Part shown: one piece after another, positions 17,827-40,711 of the stretch | Numbering within the stretch: position 1 is the stretch's first letter | Layout of the letters: the number at the start of each line of letters is the position of its first letter | Assembly (NCBI GenBank): GCA_947573485.1 | Contig: CANPGB010000013.1 | Location: 1-64,000 of the forward strand | Length of the DNA stretch: 64,000 nt | Source of the DNA: an uncultured Porphyromonadaceae bacterium | GTDB taxonomy: Bacteria > Bacteroidota > Bacteroidia > Bacteroidales > Muribaculaceae | Reading direction: 5' to 3' | Made by a program: the position numbers and the translations under genes | The notes under the pieces: generated by a model | What the model was told of the DNA's origin: nothing | Seen by the model: only the letters and a program-made list of their open reading frames with translations | Databases searched by the model: none

Positions 17827-17904
17827 TCAGCCGATTAAAGCTGCGAGTTTTTTCAGGAGATAATAAACAACAAGCGCCGATTTTTCTTCATCGGTCAACC
17901 CCAT
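17827..17904 (-). pseudogene. 25-codon HEPN-like remnant downstream of the nucleotidyltransferase
   Basis: An ATG at 17904, overlapping the end of the nucleotidyltransferase gene by 10 bases, opens a frame that reads MGLTDEEKSALVVYYLLKK and stops after 25 codons. The sequence resembles the N-terminal helix of HEPN proteins, which pair with MNT nucleotidyltransferases, and the overlap is typical of that pair. A full HEPN protein has about 120-140 residues; the catalytic RxxxxxH part is absent and nothing in the next 100 bases continues it. It is read as a truncated partner; the short length makes the match tentative. Confidence 0.45.
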
Positions 17905-18218: not shown

Positions 18219-18328
18219 TTGTGCAAAGTTAACGTTTAATTTCTGAACGCCAAAATTTGTACAAAAGTTTTTGCTCCAAACTTGTATTGATGCCGACTTA
18301 TAGTACTAAAAATGGCCTTCAGCCGCCG

Positions 18329-19333: not shown

Positions 19334-19334
19334 A

Positions 19335-21384: not shown

Positions 21385-21392
21385 ATCCGGAT

Positions 21393-22742: not shown

Positions 22743-22748
22743 TATAAC

Positions 22749-24026: not shown

Positions 24027-24040
24027 AAGAAGCAGTTTAC

Positions 24041-25246: not shown

Positions 25247-25252
25247 TCTTTA

Positions 25253-26413
25253 TCAGAATTTTCGCCACACCATTTTATTGACCACGCCTGTGTAGCTCTG
25301 GATGAGCTTGACGATTTTGGTGGATACGCACTCGTCGGTGTAATTGGGCACGGGAAGGCCGAGGGCGCCGTTGCGGTTCATTTCTACGGCAACGTCAACG
25401 GCCTGCAGGAGTGAGGCTTCGTCGATGCCGGCGAGGATGAAGTCGCCTTTGTCGAGGGCTTCGGGGCGCTCGGTGGAGGTGCGGATGCACACGGCGGCTA
25501 TGGGGCGCCCTATCGAGAGGAAGAAGCTCGATTCTTCGGGGAGTGTGCCGGAGTCGCTCACGACGGCGAAGGAGTTCATCTGCAGGTTGTTGTAGTCGTG
25601 GAAGCCGAGGGGCTCATGGGTGCGCACAAGGGGGTGGAGCTTGAAGCCGCTGGCTTCGAGGCGCTTGCGCGAGCGGGGGTGGCAGCTGTAGAGAATGGGC
25701 ATGTTGTATTTCTCGGCCATGGCGTTGATGGCGTTGAAGAGCGAGAGGAAGTTGCGCTCGGTGTCGATATTCTCTTCGCGGTGGGCCGACAGGAGGATGT
25801 AGCGACCTTTTTCGAGGCCGAGGCGGCTGAGGACGTCGGAGGCCTCGATGTCGGGCAGGTTGTTGTGGAGTACTTCGGCCATGGGCGAGCCGCTGACGTA
25901 GGTGCGCTGGGGTGCTACGCCGCTGGCGTTGAGGTAGCGGCGGGCGTGCTCGCTGTAGCAGATGTTGACGTCGGAGATGATGTCGACGATGCGGCGGTTG
26001 GTCTCTTCGGGCAGGCATTCGTCGAAGCAGCGGTTGCCGGCTTCCATGTGGAAAATGGGGATGTGGAGGCGCTTGGCACCGATGACGCTCAGGCACGAGT
26101 TGGTGTCGCCGAGCACGAGCACGGCGTCGGGACGGGTCTCGACCATGAGCTGATACGAGGCTGCGATGATGTTGCCCATGGTCTCGCCGAGGTCTTTGCC
26201 TACGGCGTTGAGGTATACCTCGGGGTCGGCGAGCTTGAGGTCTTTGAAGAAGACGCCGTTGAGGTTGTAGTCGTAGTTCTGACCGGTGTGGGCGAGGAGG
26301 ACATCGAAGTATTCGCGGCAGCGGTTGATGACGGCGGCCAGGCGTATGATTTCGGGACGGGTGCCGACGATGATCAGCAGTTTCAATTTCCCGTTATTTT
26401 TGAACTGGGACAT
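25253..26413 (-). CDS. capG: UDP-N-acetylglucosamine 2-epimerase family, CapG/FnlC type
   Basis: 386 residues from ATG 26413 (MSQFKNNGKLKLLIIVGTRPEII). The frame is open to 26578 but that extension is coded by an intergenic repeat (TDRKTKIDKKSK) and is unlikely to be real. Conserved blocks: GTRPEIIRLAAVI, HTGQNYDYNLNG, HMEAGNRCFDECLPEETNRRIVD, LLSAHREENIDTE, VSDSGTLPEESSFF. It belongs to the non-hydrolysing 2-epimerases; in the CapE/CapF/CapG pathway this enzyme makes UDP-N-acetyl-L-fucosamine in the last step. The match of all three adjacent genes to that pathway supports CapG over a plain WecB. Confidence 0.9.
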   Translation of the reverse strand: MSQFKNNGKLKLLIIVGTRPEIIRLAAVINRCREYFDVLLAHTGQNYDYNLNGVFFKDLKLADPEVYLNAVGKDLGETMGNIIAASYQLMVETRPDAVLVLGDTNSCLSVIGAKRLHIPIFHMEAGNRCFDECLPEETNRRIVDIISDVNICYSEHARRYLNASGVAPQRTYVSGSPMAEVLHNNLPDIEASDVLSRLGLEKGRYILLSAHREENIDTERNFLSLFNAINAMAEKYNMPILYSCHPRSRKRLEASGFKLHPLVRTHEPLGFHDYNNLQMNSFAVVSDSGTLPEESSFFLSIGRPIAAVCIRTSTERPEALDKGDFILAGIDEASLLQAVDVAVEMNRNGALGLPVPNYTDECVSTKIVKLIQSYTGVVNKMVWRKF

Positions 26414-26514
26414 AAAGACAAAAATTTCAAATAAACATAAATTTGAGATGACAGATAGATATAGACGTGTAGTCCTGTTGGCTATAGTAATGGCCTCGTT
26501 TTTTGACTTTTTGT

Positions 26515-27732
26515 CTATTTTTGTCTTTCTGTCTGTACTTTTTCGAAGAACGTGTCGGGGTGGCCGGGGTCGAAGCACTCGTTGCAGTACATTACGGTTA
26601 CGAGGTCGTCGGTCTCCGAGAGGTTGATGATGTTATGGGTGTAGCCGGGGAGCATGTGCACGGCTTCGATTTTGTCGCCGCTGACCTCGAACTCGATGAT
26701 TTCGTCGGAGCCGATGCGGCGTTGCTGTATCTTGCCGTGGCCGGCCACGACGATGAAGAACTCCCACTTTGTGTTGTGCCAGTGTTCGCCTTTGGTGATA
26801 CCGGGCTTGGAGATGTTGATGCTCACCTGCCCTACGTTGGCACTTTTGACCAGCTCGGTGAAGGAGCCGCGGGCGTCGATGTTCATCTTCAGAGGGAAGG
26901 CGACCTTCTCCTTGGGCAGGTAGCTGAGGTAGGTGCTGTAGAGGGCTTTGGCGAAGGAACCTTCGGGAATTTCGGGGATGACGAGCGTACGGGGCTGGGC
27001 CTTGAACTGCTCGAGCAGCTCTACAATCTGACCGAGGGTCACTTTGTGGGTATGCGGTGCCGCACAGTAGCGTCCATCAGTCGTAAGAACAGTGTCAACT
27101 CCATCAAACTCGCAGTGGTGCTCCTTACCTTGCAGGGCGGCAATCATCTCATCTACAAGGTCGTCGATGTAGAGGAGCTCGAGCTCTACCGAGGGGTCGT
27201 TGACCTGGATAGGCAGGTCGTTGGCAATGTTGTTGCAGAAGGTAGCTACGGCCGAGTTGTAGTTCGGGCGGCACCATTTGCCGAAGAGGTTGGGGAAGCG
27301 GTATACCAGCACCTTAGCGCCGGTTTCTTTGGAGTAATTGAAGAAAAGCTCCTCGCCGGCCTTCTTGCTCTCGCCGTAGGGGTGCCCGGCATAGCGGCCG
27401 ATGAGGGTTGCCTGGATGGAGCTCGAGAGCATCACCGGGCAGCGGTTGCCATGCTTTTTGAGTGTATCGAGGAGCTGCGAGGCAAAGCCGAAGTTGCCTT
27501 TGCGGAAGTCGTCGGGATTCTCGGGGCGGTTGACTCCGGCGAGGTTGAACACGAAGTCGGCCTCGCGGCAGTAGCGGTCGAGCTCGCCGGGCGTGGAGTC
27601 GATGTCGTATTCAAAGATCTCGTCAATGGCGAGGTCATCGAAGCGGCGGTCTTTACCCTCTTTTATGGCGTTGAGTTGGGCGCAGAGGTTTCGGCCAACG
27701 AAGCCTTTGGCGCCGGTAACTAAAATTCTCAT
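26515..27732 (-). CDS. capF: Capsule biosynthesis bifunctional reductase CapF/FnlB
   Basis: 405 residues from ATG 27732 (MRILVTGAKGFVGRNLC); the eight extra residues from 27756 come from a repeat. Rossmann SDR domain to about residue 265, then a C-terminal cupin (NISKPGITKGEHWHNTKWEFFIVVAGHGKI), the CapF architecture. In S. aureus, CapF epimerises and reduces the 4-keto product of CapE to UDP-N-acetyl-6-deoxy-talosamine. Its last residues (QTERQK) are coded by the same T-rich repeat that recurs in this region. It lies 101 bases before capG; the repeat cluster and GxxExxY gene separate it from capE. Confidence 0.92.
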   Translation of the reverse strand: MRILVTGAKGFVGRNLCAQLNAIKEGKDRRFDDLAIDEIFEYDIDSTPGELDRYCREADFVFNLAGVNRPENPDDFRKGNFGFASQLLDTLKKHGNRCPVMLSSSIQATLIGRYAGHPYGESKKAGEELFFNYSKETGAKVLVYRFPNLFGKWCRPNYNSAVATFCNNIANDLPIQVNDPSVELELLYIDDLVDEMIAALQGKEHHCEFDGVDTVLTTDGRYCAAPHTHKVTLGQIVELLEQFKAQPRTLVIPEIPEGSFAKALYSTYLSYLPKEKVAFPLKMNIDARGSFTELVKSANVGQVSINISKPGITKGEHWHNTKWEFFIVVAGHGKIQQRRIGSDEIIEFEVSGDKIEAVHMLPGYTHNIINLSETDDLVTVMYCNECFDPGHPDTFFEKVQTERQK

Positions 27733-28140
27733 AGACAGAAAGACATAAATAGACAAAAAAACATAAAGGGATGAAGAGAGCTAATTGGGAGACAGAAAGA
27801 GACAGAAAGAGACAGAAAGGCAGAAAGGGACAGAAATCATTCAACACAAAAATCTATGCAGTGATATATTCTGTTATTTTTGTCTTTATGTCTATTTCTT
27901 ACAAGTCATAAGAGGACAGAAGGGCAGAAAGAGGCAAAAATCATTCAACACAAAAATCTATGCTGCAATATTTTCTGTTACTTTTGTTTATTTTTGTCTT
28001 TATGTCTATTTTTGCAAGTAATAAGAGGACAGTAAGAGACAGAAAGACATAAAGGGACAGAAATCATTCAACACAAAAATCTATGCTGCAATATTTTCTG
28101 TTATTTTTGTTTATTTTTGTCTTTATGTCTATTTTTGCAC
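27733..28140. repeat. Three diverged ~105-125 base repeats between capF and the GxxExxY gene
   Basis: The core ATCATTCAACACAAAAATC recurs at 27836, 27940 and 28063. Each copy begins with GACAGAAAGA-type sequence and ends with TTTTTGTCTTTATGTCTAT, which are roughly inverted relatives. Related T-rich pieces occur at 26498-26535 (3' end of capF) and 28555-28584 (3' end of capE). Most of the 438-base gap between genes consists of this array; the last 30 bases are the GxxExxY leader. Confidence 0.75.
28106..28137 (+). promoter_or_regulatory. Promoter inside the third repeat copy, driving the GxxExxY gene
   Basis: TTTG (28106-28109), a 20-base spacer and TATTTTTG (28130-28137) match the Bacteroidetes consensus, 33 bases before the ATG at 28171. 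The second copy carries nearly the same sequence. Confidence 0.6.
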
Positions 28141-28170
28141 AAAAGTATCTCAATTAAAAATCCCACCTAA

Positions 28171-28545
28171 ATGAATACCGAAGAAATAATCCACACTATT
28201 GTACAATGTATTTACAATGTACGAGGCGTCCTTAAGCAAGGTTTCCTTGAATCGGTCTATCAACGGGCATTGCTGGTCGAACTTGCAGATTATGGTCTCG
28301 CCGCCGAATCAGAGAAAGTTGTGCCCGTTTTTTACAAAGGAAAGGCAGTGGGCTCTTTCAGACCGGATATCATCGTTGAAAATCAGGTCGTGATAGAAAT
28401 AAAAGCTGTTGACTCGCTCAACGTATCTCATGAGCTACAACTCGTGAATTACCTCACTGCCACGGGAATTGAAAATGGTATCCTCGTAAATTTTGGCGAG
28501 AGTTTCAAAGTAATGCGCAAATTCAAAACCTATCGCAAACAGTAG
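28171..28545 (+). CDS. GxxExxY family protein
   Basis: 124 residues, typical length. The signature GFLESVYQRAL (residues about 24-34) gives the family its name; later segments FRPDIIVENQVVIEIKAVDSL and HELQLVNYLTATGIENGILVNFGE show the acidic D...E-x-K pattern of a PD-(D/E)XK nuclease-like fold. Function is not established. It is the only gene on the plus strand within the capsule locus, has its own promoter in the upstream repeat, and ends against the convergent capE gene 35 bases away. This looks like an inserted cargo unit. Confidence 0.88.
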   Translation: MNTEEIIHTIVQCIYNVRGVLKQGFLESVYQRALLVELADYGLAAESEKVVPVFYKGKAVGSFRPDIIVENQVVIEIKAVDSLNVSHELQLVNYLTATGIENGILVNFGESFKVMRKFKTYRKQ

Positions 28546-28580
28546 AATTTTTTGCTTTTCTGCTTTTTTTGTCTTTCTGT

Positions 28581-29630
28581 CTACTGCACGAAGTTCCCCT
28601 CGCCGCTGAGCTCTTTCTGAATATACTCCAGAGCGGCGATTTTCTCTTTTGTCTCGGCCACGTTGAGCTGGCGGGTGTTGTTGGAGTTGAACTCGGTGAG
28701 AGTGTTGCGCGTCTCATCGCCCTCTTTGAAGAACTTGTCGTAGTTGAGGCCGCGGTTGTCGGCGGGAACACGGTAGAAATTGCCGAGGTCCTCGGCCTTG
28801 GCGCACTCCTCGTTGGTGAGAAGCGTTTCGTACATCTTCTCGCCGTGGCGGATGCCAATCACCTTGATATCCTCTTTCTTGCCGCCGAAGAGCTCGCATA
28901 CGGCCTCGGCCTGGGTGCCGATGGTGCATGCGGGGGCTTTCTGCACGAGGATGTCGCCGTTCTCACCGTGTTCGAAAGCGAAGAGCACGAGGTCGACGGC
29001 CTCTTCGAGGCTCATTATAAAGCGTGTCATCGAAGGCTCGGTGAGAGTGATGGGGTTGCCGCTGCGTATCTGCTCAATCCACAGGGGGATTACGGAGCCG
29101 CGCGAACACATCACATTGCCGTAACGGGTGCAGCAAATCTTGGTCTTGCCCGAGTAACGGCTCTTGGCAACGGCAACCTTCTCCTCGATAGCCTTGGTTA
29201 TGCCCATGGCGTTGATAGGATAGGCGGCCTTGTCGGTCGAGAGGCAGATTACCGATTCGACCCCGGCTTCGATAGCGGCGGTGAGTATATTGTCGGTACC
29301 GATTACATTGGTGCGCACGGCCTCCATGGGGAAGAACTCGCACGAGGGCACCTGCTTGAGGGCGGCCGCGTGGAAAATGTAGTTGACACCGTGCATGGCA
29401 TTGCGGCACGACTGCAGGTCGCGCACATCGCCGATATAGAATTTTATTTTGTGAGCGACTTCGGGGAAACGCACCTGATACTCATGGCGCATATCGTCCT
29501 GTTTCTTCTCGTCGCGGCTGAAAATACGTATTTCGCGGATATCGGTGTTGAGGAAGCGTCGCAACACTGCGTTGCCGAAGCTACCGGTGCCACCTGTTAT
29601 GAGGAGCACCTTGTCGTTGAATAATGACAT
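28581..29630 (-). CDS. capE: UDP-GlcNAc 4,6-dehydratase/5-epimerase, CapE/FnlA type
   Basis: 349 residues. SDR fold with the NAD loop LITGGTGSFGNAVLRRFL (residues about 7-24), RDEKKQDDMRHEYQ, and the modified catalytic segment STDKAAYPINAMGITKAIEEK, in which the usual Tyr is replaced by Met as in FlaA1/CapE-type enzymes. It converts UDP-GlcNAc to a 4-keto-6-deoxy intermediate with C5 inversion, the first step to UDP-N-acetyl-L-fucosamine. It is the first of the capE, capF, capG set, with the GxxExxY island lying between capE and capF. Confidence 0.93.
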   Translation of the reverse strand: MSLFNDKVLLITGGTGSFGNAVLRRFLNTDIREIRIFSRDEKKQDDMRHEYQVRFPEVAHKIKFYIGDVRDLQSCRNAMHGVNYIFHAAALKQVPSCEFFPMEAVRTNVIGTDNILTAAIEAGVESVICLSTDKAAYPINAMGITKAIEEKVAVAKSRYSGKTKICCTRYGNVMCSRGSVIPLWIEQIRSGNPITLTEPSMTRFIMSLEEAVDLVLFAFEHGENGDILVQKAPACTIGTQAEAVCELFGGKKEDIKVIGIRHGEKMYETLLTNEECAKAEDLGNFYRVPADNRGLNYDKFFKEGDETRNTLTEFNSNNTRQLNVAETKEKIAALEYIQKELSGEGNFVQ

Positions 29631-29633
29631 ATA

Positions 29634-30824
29634 TTAGCGGTTATGTTGTTGTTTCAATAATGAATCGTAGAGGTCGATATACTTGCCAAACTGCACATCT
29701 TTGTCGAAGCAGCTTACCGCGCGGCTGCGGCATGCCTCTGCCGTAAAGTCAGCGGGGTTGCAAATCACCCGGTTGACGGCCTCGGCCAGCGCCCCGACAT
29801 TGCCTTTCTCCACAACTATGCCCGTGCTGCCGTCGACAGCCTCAGGAGAGCCTCCTGTTCGGTAGGTGACCACCGGGGTGCCGCAGGCCAGTGCCTCGAG
29901 GTTGACGGTGGGGAAAGAATCGTTGTGAGTCGGGTTTACAAAGACCGAAGCACGGCGATATAGCCCGGCAAGCTCTTCGGCGCTCGATGTGCGTGTAATG
30001 CCGCGGATTCCCTCAGGCAACGATGCGATTTGCTTCTCAGTGAGCCCGACAAGCGTCATGGTCACATCGGCAGGCAGCAGCTGGCGTAACTTCACGAAAT
30101 CGCCGAGCCCTTTATACGCAGGCCATACGTTCGAAACGCCAAGAATCATCTTCTCTTTTTCAGCTTTATTGCCGGGAGTAAAAACACCATTGACATCAAT
30201 GCCATTGTTTATTACCGAGAACGCTGCGCCGCTTTCGCCCAGAAACGATTGTCGTGCATAATCTTCAAGCCACCTGCTTACAGCTACCACGTGAAGCCTG
30301 CTGCCGAGAGCCGAGAGTAACTCACGGCGAGTAGAATAATTGAGGGCAGAGCGACGATGACCATGCGCGCACATTTCGCAACCGTTATTACGCCACTCAA
30401 AGCATCGTGCACCCTCAAAGTGCGCGCAGCCACCTGTAAATGCCCAACAGTCGTGAAAGGTCCACACGACGGGGATTTCAGTTTCTGCCAGATAGTTGAA
30501 GAGCAGCGGATAGTTAAGCCAATGGTCGTGGATGTTGTGAAGCTGGATAACATCAGGATTCAGTTCACGTATAGCCTTGATAAGCCTGCGGGTGGGAGCC
30601 GCGCTCCCGAGGCCCTCGCGGTCGAACAAACGGCACTGCGCATAGTGCAGATAGGTGCCTGATTTCGAGCCTGCGAAAATCAGCTTTGAGCGGGAGGGAT
30701 TCACCATACGCCCATAGGCGATAGCTGACTCCCAGCCGCGATTCAAGGCGGCTACTCCAATCCCCTCAGCAATCTTTCCGGTCGAGCCCCAATTGGCTGT
30801 CGCGTTGAGTTGTAGAAGTTTCAC
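29634..30824 (-). CDS. GT4 family glycosyltransferase
   Basis: 396 residues. GT-B fold: N-terminal MKLLQLNATANWGSTGKIAEGIG, a WTFHDCWAFTGGCAHFEG motif near 120-138 as in WcaC-like colanic acid transferases, a cysteine cluster (CFEWRNNGCEMCAHG), and a C-terminal FVNPTHNDSFPTVNLEALACGTPVVTYRTGGSPE donor-binding region. It adds one sugar to the repeat unit at the cytoplasmic face of the membrane; donor and acceptor are unknown. The start overlaps the end of the upstream polymerase frame by 59 bases. Confidence 0.9.
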   Translation of the reverse strand: MKLLQLNATANWGSTGKIAEGIGVAALNRGWESAIAYGRMVNPSRSKLIFAGSKSGTYLHYAQCRLFDREGLGSAAPTRRLIKAIRELNPDVIQLHNIHDHWLNYPLLFNYLAETEIPVVWTFHDCWAFTGGCAHFEGARCFEWRNNGCEMCAHGHRRSALNYSTRRELLSALGSRLHVVAVSRWLEDYARQSFLGESGAAFSVINNGIDVNGVFTPGNKAEKEKMILGVSNVWPAYKGLGDFVKLRQLLPADVTMTLVGLTEKQIASLPEGIRGITRTSSAEELAGLYRRASVFVNPTHNDSFPTVNLEALACGTPVVTYRTGGSPEAVDGSTGIVVEKGNVGALAEAVNRVICNPADFTAEACRSRAVSCFDKDVQFGKYIDLYDSLLKQQHNR

Positions 30825-32184
30825 TTAATCTATTACTTTTTCTAAGGGAGTAAGGCTTAGTATATAAGCGAGAAAAGAGTAAAAAAACTATTAGTTCTGA
30901 AAAGAATGAAAAACAAGACGTCAGTGGCGATCGCACGAAAAAGAATACAAAGGGATATAAAACACCAGCTAACGCAATGTTAAGGTTTCGTGAATCTCCA
31001 CGGAGAGTAACCTTGACAAATTCATCTGCCCACCTTAGAGCAAAGCCTAAAAGGAAAGCAAATATTAAGGCAAATCGGCCAAAGTCAGCTCGAAGCTCAC
31101 CCATAAAGCCCGATGCCGTGCTAAAACCTTCGCCCTTGTCTCCATAATACTCTCTGATCAACCAATGGTCAAGCATCGTTGGTTTTGATGGCCATAGAGC
31201 ACGTGGAATCCAATAATATAAAACAAAACCCGATTCTTTTCCGTAATGAAGATTATGTGTTGAAAAATAATGGTCTGCTAATTCCGCCATAAAAACGACG
31301 CCTTCAGGACTCATATTTGCTGCAACTTTAGCAGGGAAATCCAAGCCGTCATTTGAAGATTGCTCACGTTCAAGATAGTCTGAGACCGTTATATCCGCAC
31401 TTCGCCGTGAAAATTTTACAAAGTCGGCCAACGAACTAAGTAGAAATACTGCTAAACAAACAGACAATACTCTCTTGAAATTCAAATGTTCAAGGGTGAT
31501 AAAACCACAGGTGATAAGATAAGGGAGCATTGTAAACAGCATCTTATACCGAGAACCTAAAGAAATCAGTATTAGAAAAACAGGTAGTACAATTAAAAAT
31601 CCTACCAAAGGTTTTCTCTTGGTCTTGAAATACAAGCCTATGAACGCTGGCACGATAGTGCCAACACCGCCCATAAAGGTTCCCAAAAAAGAACCATTAC
31701 CCATACTCGAACCGCCTCCATAACCGATATCCTCTCTTGACGCGGCCACACCCGGAAGTCGATAGGCTATAAAAGCAAGAATTAGAATGACGGCAAAAAT
31801 AATGAAGGGCTTTCCTTTGATTATTTCTCTTCCTGTTGATATTTTAAACTTTGGTCTCTTTCTAAGTAAGTAACCTAACAGTAGAAAATTATTTGAGGCC
31901 AAATAAAAAATTATGGCAACTAAATAGGATTGCGCATAATTCTCTCTTACAATCTCTATCATTTCTGATAAAATAATAAAGACGAAACCGCATAACCATG
32001 TCTGCAAGAGATTGAATCGCTTCGTATTTATAAAATCTATAACAATTATAGCTAAATATAAATACAAGTGCATATCGACTATTTCCTTTAACCATTGAGG
32101 ATTGCCAAATACAACAAAAAATGAAATAAAGGAAACAATCAATAAAAAACCTATAAGACAAGAATTGAGCGATGGATTTTTCAT
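30766..32184 (-). CDS. wzy: O-antigen/capsule polymerase-like membrane protein (Wzy candidate)
   Basis: 472 residues with about 11-12 hydrophobic helices and a larger loop (residues about 250-330) with YFSTHNLHYGKESGFVLYYWIPRALWPSKP, which resembles the oligosaccharide repeat-unit polymerase family. It is the only multi-pass protein in the locus apart from the flippase, which supports the Wzy assignment. Wzy joins lipid-linked repeat units in the periplasm. The last 19 residues overlap the next glycosyltransferase in another frame. The gene is AT-rich compared with the housekeeping genes, as are its upstream neighbours. Confidence 0.75.
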   Translation of the reverse strand: MKNPSLNSCLIGFLLIVSFISFFVVFGNPQWLKEIVDMHLYLYLAIIVIDFINTKRFNLLQTWLCGFVFIILSEMIEIVRENYAQSYLVAIIFYLASNNFLLLGYLLRKRPKFKISTGREIIKGKPFIIFAVILILAFIAYRLPGVAASREDIGYGGGSSMGNGSFLGTFMGGVGTIVPAFIGLYFKTKRKPLVGFLIVLPVFLILISLGSRYKMLFTMLPYLITCGFITLEHLNFKRVLSVCLAVFLLSSLADFVKFSRRSADITVSDYLEREQSSNDGLDFPAKVAANMSPEGVVFMAELADHYFSTHNLHYGKESGFVLYYWIPRALWPSKPTMLDHWLIREYYGDKGEGFSTASGFMGELRADFGRFALIFAFLLGFALRWADEFVKVTLRGDSRNLNIALAGVLYPFVFFFVRSPLTSCFSFFSELIVFLLFSRLYTKPYSLRKSNRLSETSTTQRDSQLGLDRKDC

Positions 32185-33290
32185 TTACCGAGAGCTGCAG
32201 AAATTTGATTAACCTGAAATTGCGGCGTCCATTCCTTTTTGATAGTTTGTACGCAATTCGATATGAGTTCTTCTGTTTTTATTGAGTGAGCGTCAAGCCA
32301 GTGCTTGATTGTATCGGCCAAAGAGGCAACATCTCCGTATTCAAAAAAATCGCCAGTTGAGCCTGGAATAATAGCTTCAAATTCCGGCATCTGTTCACTA
32401 AATTTATTATGGGTAATAACCGGTGTGCCAAAAGATAATGAATGAATGGCTGTCAAACCGACATTTCCGGGAGATACACAAATATCAGCATTATATAAAT
32501 ATTCGCCATTCTTTGCATCATCGTGACACTCTCCAACAAACCAAACAGAATCAGTTAGATTCAATTCTTTAACAGTCTTCTCTAAGATTGCTCGCTGCGA
32601 ACCATCTCCAACCAATGTCAGATTTATGAATATTTCTTGCCTTCTCAACAAAACCATAGCTTCGAGAATCATATTCAATTTCTTAACAGCTGTCAATCTA
32701 CCTATAAACACAATATTGTGAAAAGAATTTGAGAAGTGACGAGCGTAGATATCGGATTTCCGAATATCTTTCATTATTAACTCAAATTCTAATTGATTCA
32801 ATGAGTTATGTATTACAGTAAGATTGGTATTGTTAAAACCCTCTTTAAGCATCAGCTGTTTCGCATAATTGCCGTACAGCCAAACGCCGGATGCCATTTT
32901 GAAGAAAACTTTCTTGATGATTCTCTTGAAGATATTCTCATCGCCATACCAACCGTGTGTCCATAAATAAACCTTTTTCTTTCTATTTAGTAGACCACGA
33001 TAAAGCAGGACAAACCACAGACTAAGGTCGGTCAAGTTACCTGTAAAGACAAATATATCATTTGATCTTACAAACAATGGCACAATATTGCTCCATCGGA
33101 AAAATTTTAATATACGTGTTGTTTTTATATAGGTTACAGACTTAAGACATTTCGTGTCAAGACCTTTTATATCACTATTATTCTCACAAAAAAACCATTT
33201 ACAGTCAAAGGTTGAATCCAATAAAGTAAAAAGGCCTTTGCGATATAACGGGGCTATGTTTAAAACCAAGTTAATACTTCGATTATTCAT
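32181..33290 (-). CDS. GT4 family glycosyltransferase
   Basis: 369 residues. GT-B fold with N-terminal SINLVLNIAPLYRKGLFTLLDSTF, an IVFIGRLTAVKKLNMILEAM segment near 195-214, LTLVGDGSQRAILEKTV, and the C-terminal YNADICVSPGNVGLTAIHSLSFGTPVITHN donor-binding loop. It is coupled to its neighbours by 4-base overlaps on both sides (33287-33290 and 32181-32184). It is AT-rich. The specificity cannot be read from the sequence. Confidence 0.88.
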   Translation of the reverse strand: MNNRSINLVLNIAPLYRKGLFTLLDSTFDCKWFFCENNSDIKGLDTKCLKSVTYIKTTRILKFFRWSNIVPLFVRSNDIFVFTGNLTDLSLWFVLLYRGLLNRKKKVYLWTHGWYGDENIFKRIIKKVFFKMASGVWLYGNYAKQLMLKEGFNNTNLTVIHNSLNQLEFELIMKDIRKSDIYARHFSNSFHNIVFIGRLTAVKKLNMILEAMVLLRRQEIFINLTLVGDGSQRAILEKTVKELNLTDSVWFVGECHDDAKNGEYLYNADICVSPGNVGLTAIHSLSFGTPVITHNKFSEQMPEFEAIIPGSTGDFFEYGDVASLADTIKHWLDAHSIKTEELISNCVQTIKKEWTPQFQVNQISAALGK

Positions 33291-34201
33291 GCTTGTGCAC
33301 TATTTTGAAAGGCCTTATTAAATTGGTTTATAACATTTTGAATTTGTTCATCGTTCCTCCCTTTCCCAATATTTACCGAACACAATGTTTCTTTAGGCGA
33401 ATTTTTGGTTGGGAAGATTAATCCCGAGCGAACTTTTTCGATACGCACTCCAGCCTCTTGACACATTGCATTAAGCCAAATATCATCAGCTGAAGGACAC
33501 AATGCAAGAGCTTGACTTCCGTTAGTGGTACATTCTGGTAAAAGAGACGGACAGAGTAAAGTCCCTCCACCTGAACCAAAAAACAAATCTTTACCAATAT
33601 AATTATGACTTAGATTTTCCCATTCCGAATATGGTAATATTTTACCCGTCTGACTCCACTTCATTTTACACCCATAACTACATCTCACCGTTGTCCCATC
33701 ATAACTGTCAAGCAGGGTTTCAATAGTATTTGACGGATAAATAATATCATCATCTACCAAAACAACATAATCATTCGGGTATCTTTGGAATGCATAAATA
33801 TACTTTTTGTGAGATTTTAAATCATCATCGACAAACTTAATTTCAAGTCCTTTATTTATTCTGTTTTGTAGTTTTTTGGGCAATGACTCAACTCCGGCAA
33901 ATTGCTCTTTAGACAACCACAAAATTATTCGATCCGGAATTACAGTTTGAGCTAAAATAGAATCAATAGTTCTCCACACCTCATCTATCCGCGCAGGAAA
34001 ACTTGTTAGAGATACAATAATACGAGGCCCTTTCGACTTACTACTGTCGATGTGTTTTGGATTAACCAAAAATGGATAAAGAACACGAGTAAACGCCACT
34101 AAGAAATGACGCCACAAAGAATCTCCTTTAAACGTCTTGATCCATTTGGGCCAAAAAATGGTGTTTGAGTAACTCTTTAATATGATATCAATTTTATTCA
34201 T
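33287..34201 (-). CDS. Glycosyltransferase with a DDD motif
   Basis: 304 residues. A GT-A-like protein: IIVSLTSFPARIDEVWRTIDSILAQTVIPDRIILWLS near 60-97, a possible metal-binding DYVVLVDDDIIYP near 143-155, and a late CPSADDIWLNAMCQEAGV. Proteins of this kind are common in Bacteroidetes polysaccharide loci and are annotated as glycosyltransferases by similarity. It overlaps the following GT4 gene by four bases. The 90 bases upstream (34202-34291) are AT-rich and hold no recognisable gene. Confidence 0.78.
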   Translation of the reverse strand: MNKIDIILKSYSNTIFWPKWIKTFKGDSLWRHFLVAFTRVLYPFLVNPKHIDSSKSKGPRIIVSLTSFPARIDEVWRTIDSILAQTVIPDRIILWLSKEQFAGVESLPKKLQNRINKGLEIKFVDDDLKSHKKYIYAFQRYPNDYVVLVDDDIIYPSNTIETLLDSYDGTTVRCSYGCKMKWSQTGKILPYSEWENLSHNYIGKDLFFGSGGGTLLCPSLLPECTTNGSQALALCPSADDIWLNAMCQEAGVRIEKVRSGLIFPTKNSPKETLCSVNIGKGRNDEQIQNVINQFNKAFQNSAQA

Positions 34202-34291
34202 TGACTTGAGAACTCCAACTTTAAAAATAATGGGGAATTATTAGACCAAATCCCATTGAATATGATAACTAAGAGTATGATTAATATCGTT

Positions 34292-35421
34292 CTATCGTGC
34301 TTCAACAATTTCCGCAAAGAATCTCCTCACAGCGACCTCCGGATTAAATAGCTGACATTCCTCTTTTCGGTCGAAGTCTTCGTACTGCTCACAGCATTTA
34401 ATCATTGCCTCAAAGATATCGTCGGCATTGTGTCTACAGACAAACACGCCCGAAGTTTTGGAGAAGAGGTTGCGCGTCGGCGAATTAGCTCCCGTCTCGC
34501 AGATTATGGGTCGGGAAATGCGGAGATAGTTGGTTATCTTTGACGAAAGAAAAATGTCATTGTCGCAGTTGGCATCTACATCAATAAGGGCAGTAGCAGC
34601 CGCGTAATGCGGCGTAAGGTCTTTGGTGAAACCTACAATGGTCACATTGTTTTTTATTTCGTCGCTTACCGAATTGATGATATTTACATTGGTGCCAACA
34701 AATCGCAGCTCGGCATTGGGGTGAAGGACTAGAAATCGTCTGAACGCCTCAAAAATATATTTTGGTGTACGAAGACCATAAAGTGAGCCAGTGTAGAGAA
34801 ATACCGGTTCTGAGGGTTCTGTCTTCGCACCTATTGTCATAGCTTCGTCAGAAGAAGGAGTATAAAGCGTTGTGGTATGAGCGCAGCTCGATGAGATATA
34901 ATTGCGCTGGTACTCAAGCATCCAGGGATTCGAAGAAGCAAAGAGTGATAGTTCCTTGGTATATCGGCGCATAAAGAGGTCGATACCACGTGAAGAGCCT
35001 CCCCACCACGCCGGAGTCGGGACTGCATCGACAAAATAAGTTGCGTGCGGCACCCCCAATTTCAGTCTTAGTTTCTGACCAACTACCAACGGGATGGTGT
35101 TGTGGCTGGAACACAAAGAATGTAGTCAAAATCTTCTACTTTCTCTCTAAAAGTAGTCTTGGCAACGAAATCTGTGTAAGATATGCCAAAACAAGCCAAC
35201 ATCAAGCGGTTGGCGTGATAGTTGAGGCGCGGATTGATGAAGACGGGCTCCTTCAATACCGTGAGTTTGGTCACAGCCTTCAGTGCATCGGGCTTATGAG
35301 GATTGTAGTTATAGGTAATCACCGATACGTCGGCTAAATGTGAAAGCTCTCTAATCATCGTTTCAAAAACACGACCGGGAGCGGTCTTTCCAATATGCTG
35401 GGTGATAACCAATAGTTTCAT
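34292..35421 (-). pseudogene. GT4 glycosyltransferase broken by a frameshift
   Basis: Two overlapping frames make one GT-B protein of about 376 residues. The 5' frame (35421 to 35083) starts MKLLVITQHIGKTAPGRVFETMIREL and ends DYILCVPATTPSRW-stop. The 3' frame (open from 35116) continues IPLVVGQKLRLKLGVPHATYFVDAVPTPAWWGG through VFLYTGSLYGLRTPKYIFEAF to the stop at 34292. Reading shifts between about 35090 and 35100, where one base appears to be missing; there is no homopolymer at the site. As given the gene is inactive unless the two halves assemble, or the shift is a sequencing error. Confidence 0.75.
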
Positions 35422-35427
35422 ATTCCT

Positions 35428-36375
35428 TTATGATGGTGGCGACGCATTCATCTTCCCCAAGATTCCGTGCCACAAACCTTTAAGCGTGGCAAAATCTGCC
35501 GGGCAGCTTCGCTTTCTAAGCCTCAATATGTGACTTATGAAAACGATTGATGTATACGTGTACGAGATAAAAAATTCGATAAAAGCCGCAAGTCTGCCGA
35601 AATGCTTCCTTGTCAAATAGATTTTGTTGCGCGATGAGTAATATTGAGCTGACAGAGGTCGTCCTTTCCTTCCTGGAGCGTTCTCGTGTTGATGCCATGC
35701 AAATGCCCGTAATGTTGCGACCTCGCAGTAGCCAAACTTTTTGAGTCGGATAGCAAAATCGCGCTCGTCTTGATACATATACAAGGTTTCATCTTGTAGT
35801 CCAACTTTTTCCCAAGCTTCACGACGGACAATGATTGCGCCTGCCGGTATAAATGTAACTTGCTGTGTTTCAGCATAATCCCCCCCCGATTTTAAAGCAT
35901 CAATTTCATCAAATTTCACTCCACAATACAAGGGGCGACCAAAAGCGGTCTTTCCATATAGATTCCAGCCAAAAGTCTCGATTATATCGGAGTCTTTCTT
36001 AAAAAGGACAGGACCAACGACGCCGATATTGTCTTTCGAGAACAAGAGGTCAGCCATTATATCAATAGCGCCAGGCGCGAATTTCACATCGTTGGTAATC
36101 TGCATTACGGCATCTACATCAGTGTTGGATAGTATGTACTTGATACCAACATTATATGCAGCCAAGAGGTTGGTGCTGTCACAATCTAAAATAACCGAAT
36201 CTGTAAAAACATTGCGCAGAAAAGCCGTATCCTCTGGCGCTCCATTATTGATAATGACGTGACATGTAAGCGAAGCCTTATACTGATTATAATACTTTAG
36301 CCAATTTTCTACACGGAAGTGCTCCTTGCAGAAAACAGTCATCGCTGCAATTTTATGTTTCTTCACTTCGCCCAT
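35428..36375 (-). CDS. GT2 family glycosyltransferase with an in-frame G8 tract
   Basis: 315 residues. GT-A fold: KIAAMTVFCKEHFRVENWLKYYNQY, then NNGAPEDTAFL, the DxD region VDAVMQITNDVKFAPGAIDIM, and VTFIPAGAIIVRREAWEKVGLQDETLYMYQDERDFAIRLKKFG, typical of rhamnosyltransferase-like GT2 enzymes. Residues LKSGGDYAE are coded by TCGGGGGGGGAT with eight Gs at 35880-35887, the same tract as at the PLP-enzyme junction, but here in frame. The start overlaps the flippase gene end by 13 bases. Confidence 0.88.
   Translation of the reverse strand: MGEVKKHKIAAMTVFCKEHFRVENWLKYYNQYKASLTCHVIINNGAPEDTAFLRNVFTDSVILDCDSTNLLAAYNVGIKYILSNTDVDAVMQITNDVKFAPGAIDIMADLLFSKDNIGVVGPVLFKKDSDIIETFGWNLYGKTAFGRPLYCGVKFDEIDALKSGGDYAETQQVTFIPAGAIIVRREAWEKVGLQDETLYMYQDERDFAIRLKKFGYCEVATLRAFAWHQHENAPGRKGRPLSAQYYSSRNKIYLTRKHFGRLAAFIEFFISYTYTSIVFISHILRLRKRSCPADFATLKGLWHGILGKMNASPPS
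35880..35887 (-). repeat. G8 homopolymer inside the GT2 gene
   Basis: Eight consecutive Cs on the plus strand; a gain or loss of one base would truncate the glycosyltransferase. Confidence 0.6.
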
Positions 36376-37721
36376 ATTCCTGTGGCTTTACCTGAAATTA
36401 GCTTATTGAGTTGGATGCGTCCCGAAATAGCTTGTACAAGATAAGCTAACCCCGGGCTTACAACAATGCCCACAACACCAAACTGACGACAACACCACGT
36501 CATCAGTGGGAACGAAATCAACGCAAAGACAAGGTATATGTAAAACTGCAGCCTGATTGTGCCTATTCCGTTAATCATGTGCATATAGATGCCTCCAGCC
36601 ACCTGCGCGAGAATATAGAGCATCACAACAAATGACAGATAGAGCGATATCGACACTGATTTGCCAATCCAAATGCGATAGGCAAACCCTGAACAAGCGA
36701 GCATAACAATGCAAATGCACGCGGAGAGCAAGATGACAAGCTCCATTTTGGAGAGAGCCGATTTCATCCAAGCGTAGTCTTTTTTGGAGTAGGCATCGGT
36801 GAAAGCAGCCCACATTGGCCCGGCTATGATGACGCATACCATATAGACCACGCTGAAATATTTATAAGCTATGTTATACTGTGTGACAGCAATAGCACCA
36901 CATTCGCGCGATATGACGATGTTCATCAGCTGGAAAACGGCTATCAGGCAGAGATATATAACAAAGAATTTGAAGCCCATTCCCAAAAGTCCTGGCATAA
37001 GAGCGCTGCGCACCAACTTCAACGACGGAGCATAACACCGATATCGCGTAAAAGCAAACATCACCACAGAGCTTACCGCCATAGTAAGGAATGGTATTCC
37101 GGCAAAGAATACGGCGAGATTTAGTAACGAGCCCCGGGTAGTTTTGGTGAGCACGAAGATAACCACGAGCGAGAGCACTTGCCCGATGCAATGAATCACA
37201 CTCGCAATGGCCGGACGCTGATCTGCCTCAAGCAGTTTGACGAATATATTGGCTATCATATTCATACAGAAGAAGAACGAAAGAATCATAAAAATCTTGG
37301 TGAGTTCTTCTTTGTAACTCTGATTTACATTGAGCACCGACGGCCAGTCGATGAAATTGTTGATGCAAAATATCACACAGACAAGCACCAACATTATACT
37401 CCCTATAAGAGCATATGTGGTACTTACATATTGACGAGCAAGCTTAATGTCGTCCTGCGCTTTTGCCTGCGCAAACTTATTCTTGAACCCGTTCGCAAGC
37501 CCGAGGTCGAAGAACGTAGCCCAGCTTACTATCGACGATATTGTGAGCCATATGCCATATCGGGTGCTGTCGACATATGATATAGTCAACGGAACTACCA
37601 TCAACGATGTTAGAATACTGGCGGCCTTGAGCACCATCGATGCCGCTATATTCTTGGCAGCTAGACGGGAGCGCTCAGACGAGCCTTTCCAGCGTTTTCT
37701 TATTTTATCGAAATTTGGCAT
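36363..37721 (-). CDS. wzx: Wzx-type flippase
   Basis: 452 residues from ATG 37721 (MPNFDKIRKRWKGSSERSRLAAKNIAAS); the frame is open further, to 38189, but that part is antisense-frame shadow of the Ugd gene. About 12-14 hydrophobic helices, an N-terminal SLMVVPLTISYVDSTRYGIWLTISSIVSW as in polysaccharide-transport MATE-like proteins. It would flip lipid-linked repeat units across the inner membrane for Wzy. It begins two bases after the ugd stop and overlaps the GT2 gene at the other end. Confidence 0.88.
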   Translation of the reverse strand: MPNFDKIRKRWKGSSERSRLAAKNIAASMVLKAASILTSLMVVPLTISYVDSTRYGIWLTISSIVSWATFFDLGLANGFKNKFAQAKAQDDIKLARQYVSTTYALIGSIMLVLVCVIFCINNFIDWPSVLNVNQSYKEELTKIFMILSFFFCMNMIANIFVKLLEADQRPAIASVIHCIGQVLSLVVIFVLTKTTRGSLLNLAVFFAGIPFLTMAVSSVVMFAFTRYRCYAPSLKLVRSALMPGLLGMGFKFFVIYLCLIAVFQLMNIVISRECGAIAVTQYNIAYKYFSVVYMVCVIIAGPMWAAFTDAYSKKDYAWMKSALSKMELVILLSACICIVMLACSGFAYRIWIGKSVSISLYLSFVVMLYILAQVAGGIYMHMINGIGTIRLQFYIYLVFALISFPLMTWCCRQFGVVGIVVSPGLAYLVQAISGRIQLNKLISGKATGIWAK

Positions 37722-37723: not shown

Positions 37724-39043
37724 TCAGTCGCACTTGAAAATATCGCGGGTGTAGACCTTGGCCTCGACATCGGCGAGGTCGGGACTCATGCGGTTTGCGA
37801 GGATTGCGCGGCTTTGGGCTTTGAATTCGTTGAGATCGTTTACCACAAGGCTGCCGAAGAAGGTGGTGCCATTTTCGAGTGTGGGTTCGTAGATAATAAC
37901 TTTGGCGCCTTTGGCCTTGATGCGCTTCATCACGCCCTGGATAGAGGATTGGCGGAAGTTGTCGGAGTTTGATTTCATGGTGAGGCGGTAAACACCGATA
38001 ACGCATTCGCTCTCGGGAGCGTTGCCGTAGGTGTTGGCCTCGGTGTAGCCATAATAGCCTGCCATGCGGAGCACCTGGTCGGCTATGAAATCTTTGCGGG
38101 TGCGGTTGCTTTCGACGATTGCCGACATCATGTTCTGAGGTACGTCGGCATAGTTGGCAAGGAGCTGTTTGGTGTCTTTGGGCAGGCAATAGCCTCCGTA
38201 GCCGAAAGAGGGGTTGTTGTAGTGCGTGCCTATGCGGGGGTCGAGGCCGATGCCTTCGATAATGGCTCGGGAGTCGAGGCCTTTGACTTCGGCATATGTG
38301 TCGAGCTCGTTGAAGTAGCTTACGCGCAGGGCGAGATAGGTGTTTGCAAAGAGTTTAACAGCCTCGGCTTCTTTCATGCCCATAAAAAGGGTGGGGATAT
38401 TCTCTTTGATGGCTCCCTGTTGCAGGAGAGAGGCAAAGGTTTCAGCGGCTTCCCGGAGTTTAGCTATATCGGTGAGTTGCAGAATCGCATCGTTTTCCTC
38501 ATTGAACTCGGGTGCGTCAATTATCTTGGGATAGCCTACGATTATGCGCGAGGGGTAAAGATTATCGTAAAGGGCTTTGCTCTCGCGGAGGAACTCGGGA
38601 GAGAAGAGCAGGTTGAGTTTGCGAGCACCGCTTCGTGCATAACGCAAATAGAGACTGCGGCAATAGCCAACGGGGATTGTTGACTTGATTACCATGACTG
38701 CGTCGGGATTTACGCTGAGCACAAGGTCGATAACATCTTCAATACAATGGGTATCGAAATAGTTTTTTACGGGGTCGTAGTTTGTGGGGGCCGCAATAAC
38801 CACAAAGTCGGCGGTGCGGTAAGCTTCAGCACCGTCGAGGGTTGCCGTAAGGTTGAGTTCCTTTTCCTTGAGGTATTTCTCGATATATTCGTCTTGAATC
38901 GGAGAACGCCGGCTGTTGATCAGCTGAACCTTTTCGGGAATCACATCTACAGCAGTAACTTGGTTATGCTGAGCCAAAAGTGTGGCTATGCTGAGCCCGA
39001 CGTAGCCTGTACCGGCTACGGCAATCTTATATTGTCGCATCAC
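37724..39043 (-). CDS. ugd: UDP-glucose/nucleotide-sugar 6-dehydrogenase
   Basis: 439 residues. N-terminal NAD loop [31 protein letters not shown] near 85-95, [11 protein letters not shown], the central [18 protein letters not shown] helix, and the catalytic cysteine in [15 protein letters not shown] near residue 265. The C-terminal Rossmann domain follows. It oxidises UDP-glucose (or a similar UDP-sugar) to the uronic acid with two NAD+, giving an acidic residue for the capsule. It is the second gene of the locus, 30 bases after the antiterminator fusion. Confidence 0.92.
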
Positions 39044-39073: not shown

Positions 39074-40549
39074 TCAGTTTGTGCGTCGCACCATGCGGGA
39101 GTCGACGGAGAGGCGCCATTCCACGCCGCGGTTGTCGAAGAAGAGGAGGCGGCAGATAGTGGCGCCGTCGGCGGCGGTGGTGGAGCCGACGGTGGCGGTG
39201 ACTCCGGCGAAGCCGCCGCCTATGATCTGCACGCGGTCGCCTTCGGCCAGGGGGAGGGAACCTGCGGGGTATATGTCCATGCCGGGTGTGAAGATGCCTA
39301 TGGTGCGCTGGAAGGCTGCCATGGCGGCGTCGCTGATGACGGCGTATGGTGTGCCGGGGCCGCCCACGGTGTAGCACCAGGCGAGGTCGCCTATGTGGCG
39401 GAAGAGGGCGGGGATGTCGGTGAGGCGGTTTTTGAAGAAGAGGATGTCGTGGATAACGGGGCGGTCGTCGAAGACTATTTTTTTGCCTACGCGCCTGGCA
39501 ATTTCTTCGCAGGGGTAGTAGAGCTGCGGTGCGGCAATACCTTGCGGGAGGGTGGCGAGACGGTCGGCTATCTGTGCGTAGCTTGTGCTTCGCCGCAGGC
39601 GCATGGCGTGCCACTGCTCGGGGTTGTCGGCGATGAGGGCGGCGGTGCCGCGCAGGAGCATTTTGCGGTCGAGGGGGCTTGCGCCGACAATGGGAGCAAG
39701 GGCGAAAGCGGGGTTATCGGCGGGGCGGCTGCCGAGCACGGCCACTATGCCTGCGGGGGCGGCTCCGATGTGGAGGGCTGCTGTAGCCCAGAGGTTGGCT
39801 ATGGTGTCGGAGAGGGGGAGCGTCGACTCTACTCCTTTGACTGCGAGGAGGCTGCGGGAGGCGCTGTCGACTTTCGCGTCGAGTTGGCGCGGGGTCAGCG
39901 AGGCCTGGTCGAGGGGGAAGATGTATTTGCGGTTTGCCGATGAGTGGCGCCGGGCTATGGCTGCGGCTTCGGGGGTGAGTTCGGCGGCGGGGTCGTCTTT
40001 GTGCATCCGTGCGGCTTCGCATGGCGATATTCCGCCGGAGTAGATGCAGAAGAGTAGGAGGTCGGCGTAGAGAGCCATTGAGCCGCGCAGTGTGTGGGCG
40101 TTGCGCGCCAATGCGCAGAGTGCGTTGAAGTTGCTTATGCGCCGCTTGTGGTCGAAGTCGAGGGCGGCTATCGAGCCGAGGGCGCGCTTTGCTTGTGCGA
40201 AAGCTTCGGTGGCGGGTGCCCTGCCCTGCTTCACTGCCGCGCCATAGAGTGCCGAGAGTGCCGCCAGGTAGTGCCCGGCCACTTTGTAGCTGTAGCCGTC
40301 GGCGAAGAGCGCCGAGAGCCAAGCGAGGAGCATGGGGGCGTCGATATCGGCGAGTGCCACGCCGCGTCCGGCGTCGAAGGCCTCGAAGGTGTCGATAGCC
40401 TTGCGGTAGTTTCCGGCTGTGGAGGGCGCTTTGAGGTCGGCCTCCGACCGGAAAAATGCGAGGGCATCGAGTGTGCCAAGTTGTGCCGTATCAGCGGCTT
40501 GAGGCATCAGCAATTTTTTAACGGGGCGTTGATTTGAGAGAATCCTCAT
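39074..40549 (-). CDS. Degenerate tyrosine-recombinase domain fused to a NusG/UpxY-like antiterminator
   Basis: 491 residues. Residues about 25-125 match the SAM-like core-binding domain of Bacteroidetes integrases (STAGNYRKAIDTFEAF, SYKVAGHYLAALSALYGAAVKQG). Residues about 135-320 follow the catalytic domain outline (ALYADLLLFCIYSGGISPCEAARM, later IANLWATAALHIGAAPAGIVAVLG), but the catalytic Arg after GG is Ser, the HxxR box is missing and no nucleophile Tyr context is seen. Residues about 343-420 are an UpxY-type NusG N-domain (YYPCEEIARRVGKKIVF, DILFFKNRLTDI) and 436-455 a KOW motif (EGDRVQIIGGGFAGVTATV). It is the first gene of the capsule locus, the position of UpxY regulators, so it probably promotes elongation through the long operon. 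The integrase-like part may bind DNA. A second ATG (residue 15) is possible. Confidence 0.8.
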   Translation of the reverse strand: MRILSNQRPVKKLLMPQAADTAQLGTLDALAFFRSEADLKAPSTAGNYRKAIDTFEAFDAGRGVALADIDAPMLLAWLSALFADGYSYKVAGHYLAALSALYGAAVKQGRAPATEAFAQAKRALGSIAALDFDHKRRISNFNALCALARNAHTLRGSMALYADLLLFCIYSGGISPCEAARMHKDDPAAELTPEAAAIARRHSSANRKYIFPLDQASLTPRQLDAKVDSASRSLLAVKGVESTLPLSDTIANLWATAALHIGAAPAGIVAVLGSRPADNPAFALAPIVGASPLDRKMLLRGTAALIADNPEQWHAMRLRRSTSYAQIADRLATLPQGIAAPQLYYPCEEIARRVGKKIVFDDRPVIHDILFFKNRLTDIPALFRHIGDLAWCYTVGGPGTPYAVISDAAMAAFQRTIGIFTPGMDIYPAGSLPLAEGDRVQIIGGGFAGVTATVGSTTAADGATICRLLFFDNRGVEWRLSVDSRMVRRTN

Positions 40550-40629
40550 CGTCCTGCCGCATTTGATATAAGTATGTGGCAGTGACGGTTTTGCAGTGAT
40601 AAAGACTCCTGCTTTGTCATTGAGGATTC
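40540..40629 (-). promoter_or_regulatory. Possible start-codon-masking hairpin in the capsule leader
   Basis: GAATCCTCA in the leader (40621-40629 on the plus strand as TGAGGATTC) can pair over nine bases with TGAGGATTC at 40540-40548, which includes the UG of the AUG at 40547-40549 of the fusion gene. Confidence 0.45.
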
Positions 40630-40680: not shown

Positions 40681-40711
40681 CAAAGTTACACATTTCTTCT
40701 GAAACGGCAAA
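40681..40711 (-). promoter_or_regulatory. Promoter of the capsule locus
   Basis: Minus strand TTTG (40708-40711), a 19-base spacer and TAACTTTG (40681-40688), a near-perfect Bacteroidetes promoter. Transcription from here gives a leader of about 125 bases before the antiterminator fusion gene. No long flanking inverted repeats of the kind bordering invertible capsule promoters were seen nearby. Confidence 0.75.

Follow-up and report, generated by a model that had tools for sequence, protein, structure and literature searches.

A recombinase-derived domain in a probable UpxY-type antiterminator variant heading a capsule locus of an uncultured Muribaculaceae bacterium

The stretch of DNA studied here, called the window in the following, comprises 64,000 nucleotides (nt) of an uncultured Porphyromonadaceae bacterium (Muribaculaceae in the GTDB lineage; assembly GCA_947573485.1, contig CANPGB010000013.1, positions 1 to 64,000). 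The first gene of a capsule cluster on its minus strand codes for a pseudo-tyrosine-recombinase fused to a UpxY-type NGN/KOW module. The open reading frame (ORF) as listed, 39074-40549 on the minus strand, has 491 codons and lies in a stop-to-stop frame of 517. Translation probably begins at Met15 (window 40507) instead: the ATG at 40549 is part of the leader hairpin described below, and the corresponding Met is where many relatives start. This would give a gene of 39074..40507 (-) and a protein of 477 amino acids (aa). With 477-491 aa the fusion is far longer than the frames of most stand-alone UpxY proteins listed (172-245 aa), and it is probably a variant of the UpxY-type antiterminators with a domesticated recombinase.

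Residues 27-139 (40133..40471, minus strand) form a core-binding (SAM-like) domain, assigned by alignment with integrases and by a Pfam match, Phage_int_SAM_1 (PF02899) at residues 41-109 with an E-value of 5.1e-5, above the Pfam cut-off. Residues 140-283 (39701..40132, minus strand) correspond to a degenerate catalytic domain with none of the six catalytic residues and with the Lys beta-hairpin deleted; no Pfam match to the catalytic domain PF00589 (Phage_integrase) was obtained in the window protein at E<=1, nor did Pfam find an arm-binding domain in it. The NGN and KOW domains at residues 313-454 (39188..39613, minus strand) match the NCBIfam family UpxY (NF033644) with an E-value of 1.8e-11 and 44.3 bits, and a search of the own genome gave the identical span. 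Within it the KOW motif at residues 436-454 (39188..39244, minus strand) matches PF00467 with 14.5 bits, below the cut-off, and the RfaH family was not listed for the window protein at E<=0.1 in the NCBIfam-type profile scan. A local profile comparison matched the N-terminal part to Bacteroidales integrases with a probability of 99.4 and an E-value of 2e-21, the comparison set being eight integrase sequences from relatives' loci, two of which (L024 and L050) are the same gene. A preliminary description, made from the letters of the window, had proposed a recombinase-derived N-terminal half fused to a UpxY-type NGN/KOW domain; the PF02899 and integrase profile matches bear out the first part and the NF033644 match the second.

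The same description had also considered the active site as lost, and this proved right. For the catalytic residues the N-terminal parts of 72 non-identical fusions were aligned with 18 integrases, leaving out three fusions of insufficient length (L070, L079, L087) and four pieces of integrases. In the window protein the residues are absent from the aligned places: Arg I is replaced by Gly172, and not by the Ser after GG that had been named before, Arg II and His II by Ala251 and Asn252, His III by Ser274 and the nucleophile Tyr by Ala283 (residue numbers counted by hand from the translation). A deletion has removed the beta-hairpin that carries the catalytic Lys. Across the 72 fusions zero to two of the six residues remain: none of the R-K-R-H-H-Y set is kept in 44 proteins, one in 25 and two in three. 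All six are found in 17 of the 18 integrases, and L096, from the window's own genome, has five. The catalytic-Lys column is a gap in 69 of 72 fusions. The sequence scaffold persists, since the Trp adjoining the lost His is present in 72 of 72.

About 180 nt upstream of the gene the sequence TTTG-N19-TAACTTTG can be read at 40681..40711 (-). We take it to be a Bacteroidetes-type promoter; it is not among the sigma-70-type sites predicted, a prediction that does not cover the Bacteroidetes type. At 40536..40595 (-) a UpxY-type leader hairpin followed by GACGATGAGGATT is indicated by a hit of a model of ordinary UpxY leaders, by a leader fold z of -3.3 and by covariation in the family. In a set of the family's ordinary UpxY genes the hairpin reads ACTGCTT...AAGCAGGA and is followed by GAAGAATTGTC; the fusion leaders mostly have a longer hairpin and then GGGTCGGGAAGAATTGT. 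The fusion leader hairpin resembles the ordinary UpxY leader. The model of ordinary leaders (R1) was made from 12 leaders picked by eye from 40 fetched (L148 was omitted as shorter). Its best match in the 64-kb window lies at 40586-40536 (13.9 bits, E 0.37) and counts because of its position directly before the fusion, not because of its score. The leader of the other UpxY gene in the window's genome is matched with 25.4 bits (E 2.4e-4).

A position weight matrix of the leader exceeds the 1% shuffle threshold in 34 of 54 distinct fusion leaders, or 35 of 55 rows. In the upstream comparisons the window locus is entered under two names, L001 and WIN, so that 55 rows are 54 loci and 50 rows are 49. 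Covariation of the hairpin was analysed on 23 of 32 segments (omitted were L009, L016, L021, L039, L046, L048, L049, L056 and L057), the structure tested being the fold of one leader, L024. In these 23 aligned leaders both sides have changed in 14 of 17 pairs, and the score of 0.343 compares with 0.226 +/- 0.019 in shuffles (none of 500 as high) and with at most 0.199 when the structure was slid; the signal is carried by the inner stem, and the outer stem is often unpaired.

A model of the fusion leaders (R2), run at E<=5 on 49 loci (630 kb), gave eight matches, all just upstream of fusion-family genes outside the training set. They belong to seven loci (L116, L122, L084, L018 on both strands, L020, L115 and L123); three have E-values of 0.1-0.4 and one of 0.8, and in two cases, L084 and the L044 gene within L018, the gene has a presumed start. 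L084 is a split pair, and we count its retention of both halves, together with the leader element upstream of its first gene's presumed start, in favour of a locus-specific antiterminator. Among the 13 matches listed for 14 whole genomes there were five training leaders, seven weaker matches and one new place (G117:C1:49451-49504, 34.1 bits) just before L203, which had been missed by the first protein search and is a fusion of a second class and the first gene of another capsule cluster. Two of the seven weaker matches were inspected (L199, L204), with no fusion gene among the ORFs listed. A GACATA box upstream of the hairpin was discarded as too weak, being the best 7-mer in 15 of 32 leaders where 20 shuffled sets peak at 9-13; it is not visible at the equivalent place in the window.

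The fusion is not restricted to the window's assembly, a point which the preliminary description had left to be checked. In 247 genomes that we take to be of the same family (Muribaculaceae), 67 match the fusion at E<=1e-5 and 46 have it with both halves by a hand count from the search table, where a row was required to have an open frame of at least 420 aa, a match start at residue 275 or before and a match end at residue 440 or beyond. With these numbers the fusion is neither chance nor an accident of assembly. Three rows (G094, G213, G167; loci L015, L016, L028) are flagged with one TAA within the aligned stretch, and the stop-free frames of these loci begin no later than position 9 of the family model and reach at least 478. 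A scan of genome contigs with the single window protein gave no match; the alignment-based scan gave 43 loci, one of them in Duncaniella muris DSM 103720. The second, divergent class (L203) matches the first by profile over residues 10-450 of 452 with a probability of 99.7. Among the matches listed in the 247 genomes it has at least 11 both-halves rows, excluding a first-class row in G102, and by hand count it adds G028, G158, G179, G186 and G196 to the 46 genomes. A look at other Bacteroidales had also been proposed in the preliminary description. The fusion is present in many relatives in the family; outside it, the matches listed by the order-wide profile search of 393 genomes are all integrases or UpxY proteins standing alone. 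Since scoring was limited to four candidates per genome and the comparison to the matches listed, absence outside the family is not proven. Phage and plasmid collections gave no tblastn match to the fusion. UpxZ, the cross-locus inhibitor of Bacteroides, was found in one of the 247 genomes and not in the window's genome, while UpxY above the family cut-off is present in 152.

Despite the loss of catalysis the N-terminal half is not simply decaying, because the ratio of non-synonymous to synonymous substitution rates (dN/dS) is well below 1 in close pairs. In the three closest of 11 pairs it amounts to 0.20-0.26 for the core-binding, 0.02-0.14 for the catalytic and 0.01-0.21 for the NGN/KOW part; in the other eight it is often not computable, synonymous sites being saturated, with core-binding values of 0.12-0.34 and 0.58 in L056/L057. 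The recombinase-derived domain is under purifying selection, and the N-terminal half evolves faster than NGN. It is therefore quite unlikely that the N-terminal part is an evolutionary leftover which merely serves as a stable spacer after gene fusion. Three relatives which lost part or all of this domain (L079, L087, L086) would fit such a spacer, but the purifying selection in close pairs, the conserved family-specific columns (e.g. Y209, F211, L213, Q215 and W254) and the retention of both halves after fission in L084 argue against it.

In a tree of the UpxY part with 103 rows a main clade (99/91) includes 70 of 71 fusions together with L079 and L087, members without the catalytic part, L086, a member without the whole N-terminal domain, and the split pair L084, whose halves are retained as overlapping genes. 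L029 and L070 were excluded as incomplete, and of the second class L044 is included while the other members are outside the tree. L084 groups with L117 (99/96) and L086 falls in a clade of four (100/98); because both are nested inside the main clade, the fission and the loss are secondary. The odd fusion, L044, has a long branch, and a topology that places it with the others in a single clade is not rejected (p 0.293). The simplest account of this tree is one main fusion event with later fission and loss. The sister of the fusion clade (98/91) consists of six UpxY proteins (L074-L078, L088), and L076 and L078 stand behind an integrase gene. These six are UpxY-like with open frames of 301-413 aa, and L074-L078 are extended by a stretch of at least 150 aa C-terminal to NGN/KOW.

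Fusions and integrases differ in charge. The core-binding part has a net charge of -0.2 +/- 3.4 in the fusions against +8.0 +/- 2.8 in the integrases, and the catalytic part one of +2.6 +/- 3.1 against +9.2 +/- 2.6 (rank-sum p 1.4e-9 and 4.3e-9, computed over non-independent sequences). At least 14 of the 18 integrases have K or R at each of 18 positions; just three of these positions stay K or R in more than half of the 72 fusions. The UpxY part is not acidic, with a mean charge of +4.0 in the 72 fusions and +5.3 in 22 stand-alone proteins. DNA binding by the recombinase-derived half thus appears doubtful in the class of the window; the divergent member L044, whose core-binding part has a charge of +9, may bind DNA. 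These values bear on the possibility that the recombinase part, bound to a specific stretch of duplex close to the promoter, brings the NGN domain to the operon. Pfam still recognises the core-binding domain in the window protein and in some members, this domain evolves faster than NGN/KOW in 11 of 11 pairs, as a specificity domain might, L044 retains its charge of +9, and UpxY has reportedly been seen to bridge to the duplex DNA upstream (PMC12691694, in the available excerpt, citing Saba 2024), a contact which the N-terminal half could serve. Nevertheless we consider such a tether to DNA unlikely: the basic surface is lost, the GACATA box is weak and not visible in the window, and no recombinase-type site specific to the fusion loci was found, the inverted repeats being common to ordinary UpxY loci and missing in the window. 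For the same two reasons, lost basic surface and no fusion-specific site, we do not follow the preliminary description in letting the recombinase part guide the antiterminator to a chosen DNA site.

Among 49 distinct fusion-family loci (50 rows), 16 have inverted repeats of at least 14 base pairs (bp) upstream; among the ordinary UpxY loci it is 15 of 38. At 13 of the former and 14 of the latter the repeats were recognised by eye as belonging to the ATCTCTTnnnAAGAGAT type, with copies flanking the promoter, and promoters flanked in this way presumably invert. At the window locus no promoter-flanking inverted repeats were found in the 1 kb scanned upstream, and the repeats are about as frequent at ordinary UpxY loci, with no recombinase-type site specific to fusion loci. 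ATCTCTTnnnAAGAGAT is one arm of these repeats and has one near-match in the window's genome. As a palindromic operator specific to the fusion it was rejected: 13-14 of 14 positions match in 17 of 52 fusion leaders and in 11 of 40 ordinary ones. An imperfect repeat, AAACGGCC..GGGTCGTTT, directly after the window promoter had the look of a site; the repeat scan gave no second copy in the 1 kb upstream, and it was set aside. An active-type integrase gene is found within about 1 kb upstream of the fusion-family loci L024 and L026 and of four of 38 ordinary loci; the third upstream integrase-like row, at L018, is the divergent fused paralog L044.

From these repeats one could imagine that the dead domain partners with active integrases or sits on their repeats, thereby locking or biasing promoter inversion and coupling the ON state to elongation. 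The promoter-flanking repeats in 13 of 49 distinct loci, the integrase genes just upstream in L024 and L026 and those in front of the sister members L076 and L078 would agree with this. But most of the fusion-family loci examined, the window included, are without repeat or integrase within about 1 kb, and the charge is not higher at repeat-bearing loci (p 0.15 for the core-binding and 0.46 for the catalytic part), which makes such a role very unlikely. We also give a small probability to the pseudo-recombinase being a sensor that reads the DNA state of promoter inversion, or a bound active recombinase, and lets the NGN domain work only while the capsule promoter is in a given state; if true, DNA inversion and transcript elongation would be coupled in one protein.

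Some further observations concern the repeats and loci of the family. At many capsule loci of the family, including L002, L013, L016, L020, L024, L036, L145-L147 and L169, inverted copies of the palindrome ATCTCTTnnnAAGAGAT flank the promoter, about 110-480 nt ahead of the gene. In 21 of 27 loci of this type no integrase gene is nearer than about 1 kb, which looks as if many loci shared one recombinase. A second capsule locus in the window's genome (L114:9079-11260, contig C2) has an integrase gene, dTDP-rhamnose genes downstream and, read by eye, 29-bp inverted repeats around a promoter segment of about 240 bp; its UpxY gene is broken by an in-frame stop and its integrase has Met for the first catalytic Arg. 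In L049 and L057 long near-perfect palindromes directly precede the promoter -7 box and may be operators or sites of recombination. The longest open frames among the fusions are those of L049 (561 aa), L056 (720 aa) and L057 (627 aa).

The capsule context given in the preliminary description is supported both by the position of the fusion as first gene of the window's cluster and by the next ORF being co-directional in 55 of 68 fusion-family loci. In the window a UDP-glucose/GDP-mannose dehydrogenase (PF03721/PF00984/PF03720) follows after a gap of 30 nt at 37724..39043 (-). It is followed by a MatE-like flippase at 36363..37720 (-), matching PF01554 with 6.5e-5 and 23.1 bits against a cut-off of 24.9; its start is approximate, as its longer ORF overlaps the dehydrogenase gene before it. 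The rest of the cluster examined (16034..36375, minus strand) comprises glycosyltransferases, Polysacc_synt_2, epimerases, a UDP-GlcNAc 2-epimerase, an initiating sugar transferase, a pyridoxal phosphate (PLP) enzyme, an ATP-grasp protein and a DegT aminotransferase, and several ORFs without a match. The cluster, about 24 kb as examined, is presumably one transcript. Among 100 downstream proteins scanned (101 were picked) the most frequent Pfam families are polysaccharide flippases and family-2 glycosyltransferases (8 each), followed by NAD-dependent epimerases (7). Two ORFs of the window are unusual in themselves. The DegT-type sugar aminotransferase ORF at 16034-17725 (-) carries DUF559 (endonuclease-like) at residues 317-422 between two reported DegT stretches, as if inserted into the enzyme, and just upstream of the capsule locus a 700-aa ORF (40739-42841, minus strand) combines a PLP aminotransferase with a following diaminopimelate epimerase in an apparent gene fusion.

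A different picture is given by a sub-clade (L061, L062, L065, L067-L070, L072 and L073) without a co-directional gene next to the fusion; neighbours of L067 and L068, where annotated, are pectin (rhamnogalacturonan) degradation genes. For these members the neighbourhoods, and the lack of the capsule-type element in the leaders examined, suggest an RfaH-like regulator which may act in trans. Extended to the whole family, this would mean a regulator of several loci instead of a locus-specific UpxY. Besides the sub-clade the interrupted reading frame of the other clear UpxY-like gene in the window's genome, with its in-frame stop, could be in line with it. However, the next gene is co-directional in 55 of 68 loci and many loci have their own leader element, so that only a marginal probability remains for a general action in trans.

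The reading to which we give about an even chance is that of a locus-specific antiterminator of the UpxY class for its own capsule genes, with an N-terminal half that is a domesticated, non-catalytic tyrosine recombinase. We infer antitermination because the fusion has the same module, the same gene position and the same type of leader as UpxY proteins. RNA polymerase, starting from the promoter some 180 nt before the gene, would transcribe the leader hairpin and a purine-rich element directly ahead of the start codon. The NGN domain would load onto the polymerase at the leader and, with KOW, carry it through the capsule cluster. The recombinase-derived domain would most likely be a regulatory module for protein interaction or for gating of the NGN domain, a role likelier than DNA contact in the class of the window because the basic charge is lost.

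Several observations weigh against this locus-specific antiterminator. The UpxY score of 44.3 bits lies below the family cut-off of 100, and the protein-binding gate is reached by exclusion. The R1 match in the window is weak when taken alone (E 0.37), the next-best reaching 12.7 bits (E 0.88); on 56 fusion-family loci R1 gives seven matches at E<=10 with just three at leaders (L028, L025, L001), and at the ordinary loci L146 and L147 its matches are antisense to the gene. R2 finds leaders in only seven of 49 loci and none in the other 42. The position weight matrix was trained on the fusion leaders that it scored and passes in seven of 38 ordinary UpxY leaders. The sub-clade of L061 and others has no capsule-type leader where examined and stands among pectin-degradation genes. 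Finally, the loss of the catalytic part in L079 and L087 and of the N-terminal domain in L086 points to these parts being dispensable in places.

Capsule switching in gut Bacteroidales combines promoter inversion by recombinases with antitermination by UpxY (PMC12632263, in the excerpt available), and UpxY proteins are described as keeping transcription from ending too early in the 5' leaders that precede their genes (PMC7819879, likewise in excerpt). In the fusion two kinds of capsule-switch protein are joined into one, most simply once and within one gut family. The recombinase half is still under selection after catalysis was lost, and a DNA-rearranging enzyme has apparently been turned into part of a regulator of RNA polymerase. 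With UpxZ nearly absent (1 of 247 genomes), the fusion family is a candidate for keeping capsule loci exclusive, and as the named strain Duncaniella muris DSM 103720 carries the fusion, a testable case is at hand.

We found no description of a recombinase-UpxY fusion in the literature searched, which comprised openly licensed papers only, and we know of no eukaryotic domesticated recombinase that is joined to an RNA polymerase elongation factor. The reuse of a recombinase domain by the host is as such familiar from eukaryotes, where the available excerpts describe Crypton-derived genes (PMC3212892) and ALOG, a regulator (PMC3537659); the fusion resembles these in its reused domain but is bacterial. 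RfaH and LoaP are, like the fusion, NusG paralogs, and act on long operons at an element in the leader (PMC7819879, PMC12691694); unlike the fusion they use different leader elements, and no recombinase domain is mentioned for them in the excerpts of these papers. With the Bacteroidales tyrosine integrases (Arm-DNA-bind_5/SAM_5/Phage_integrase, e.g. L076) the fusion has the core-binding domain and the catalytic outline in common, whereas the window protein lacks the six catalytic residues, the Lys hairpin and the basic surface, gave no Pfam match to an arm-binding domain and is joined to a NusG paralog. With the UpxY antiterminators (NF033644) it shares NGN/KOW, the place as first capsule gene and the hairpin leader; unlike them it scores below the cut-off, has no UpxZ partner and adds about 300 N-terminal residues derived from a recombinase.

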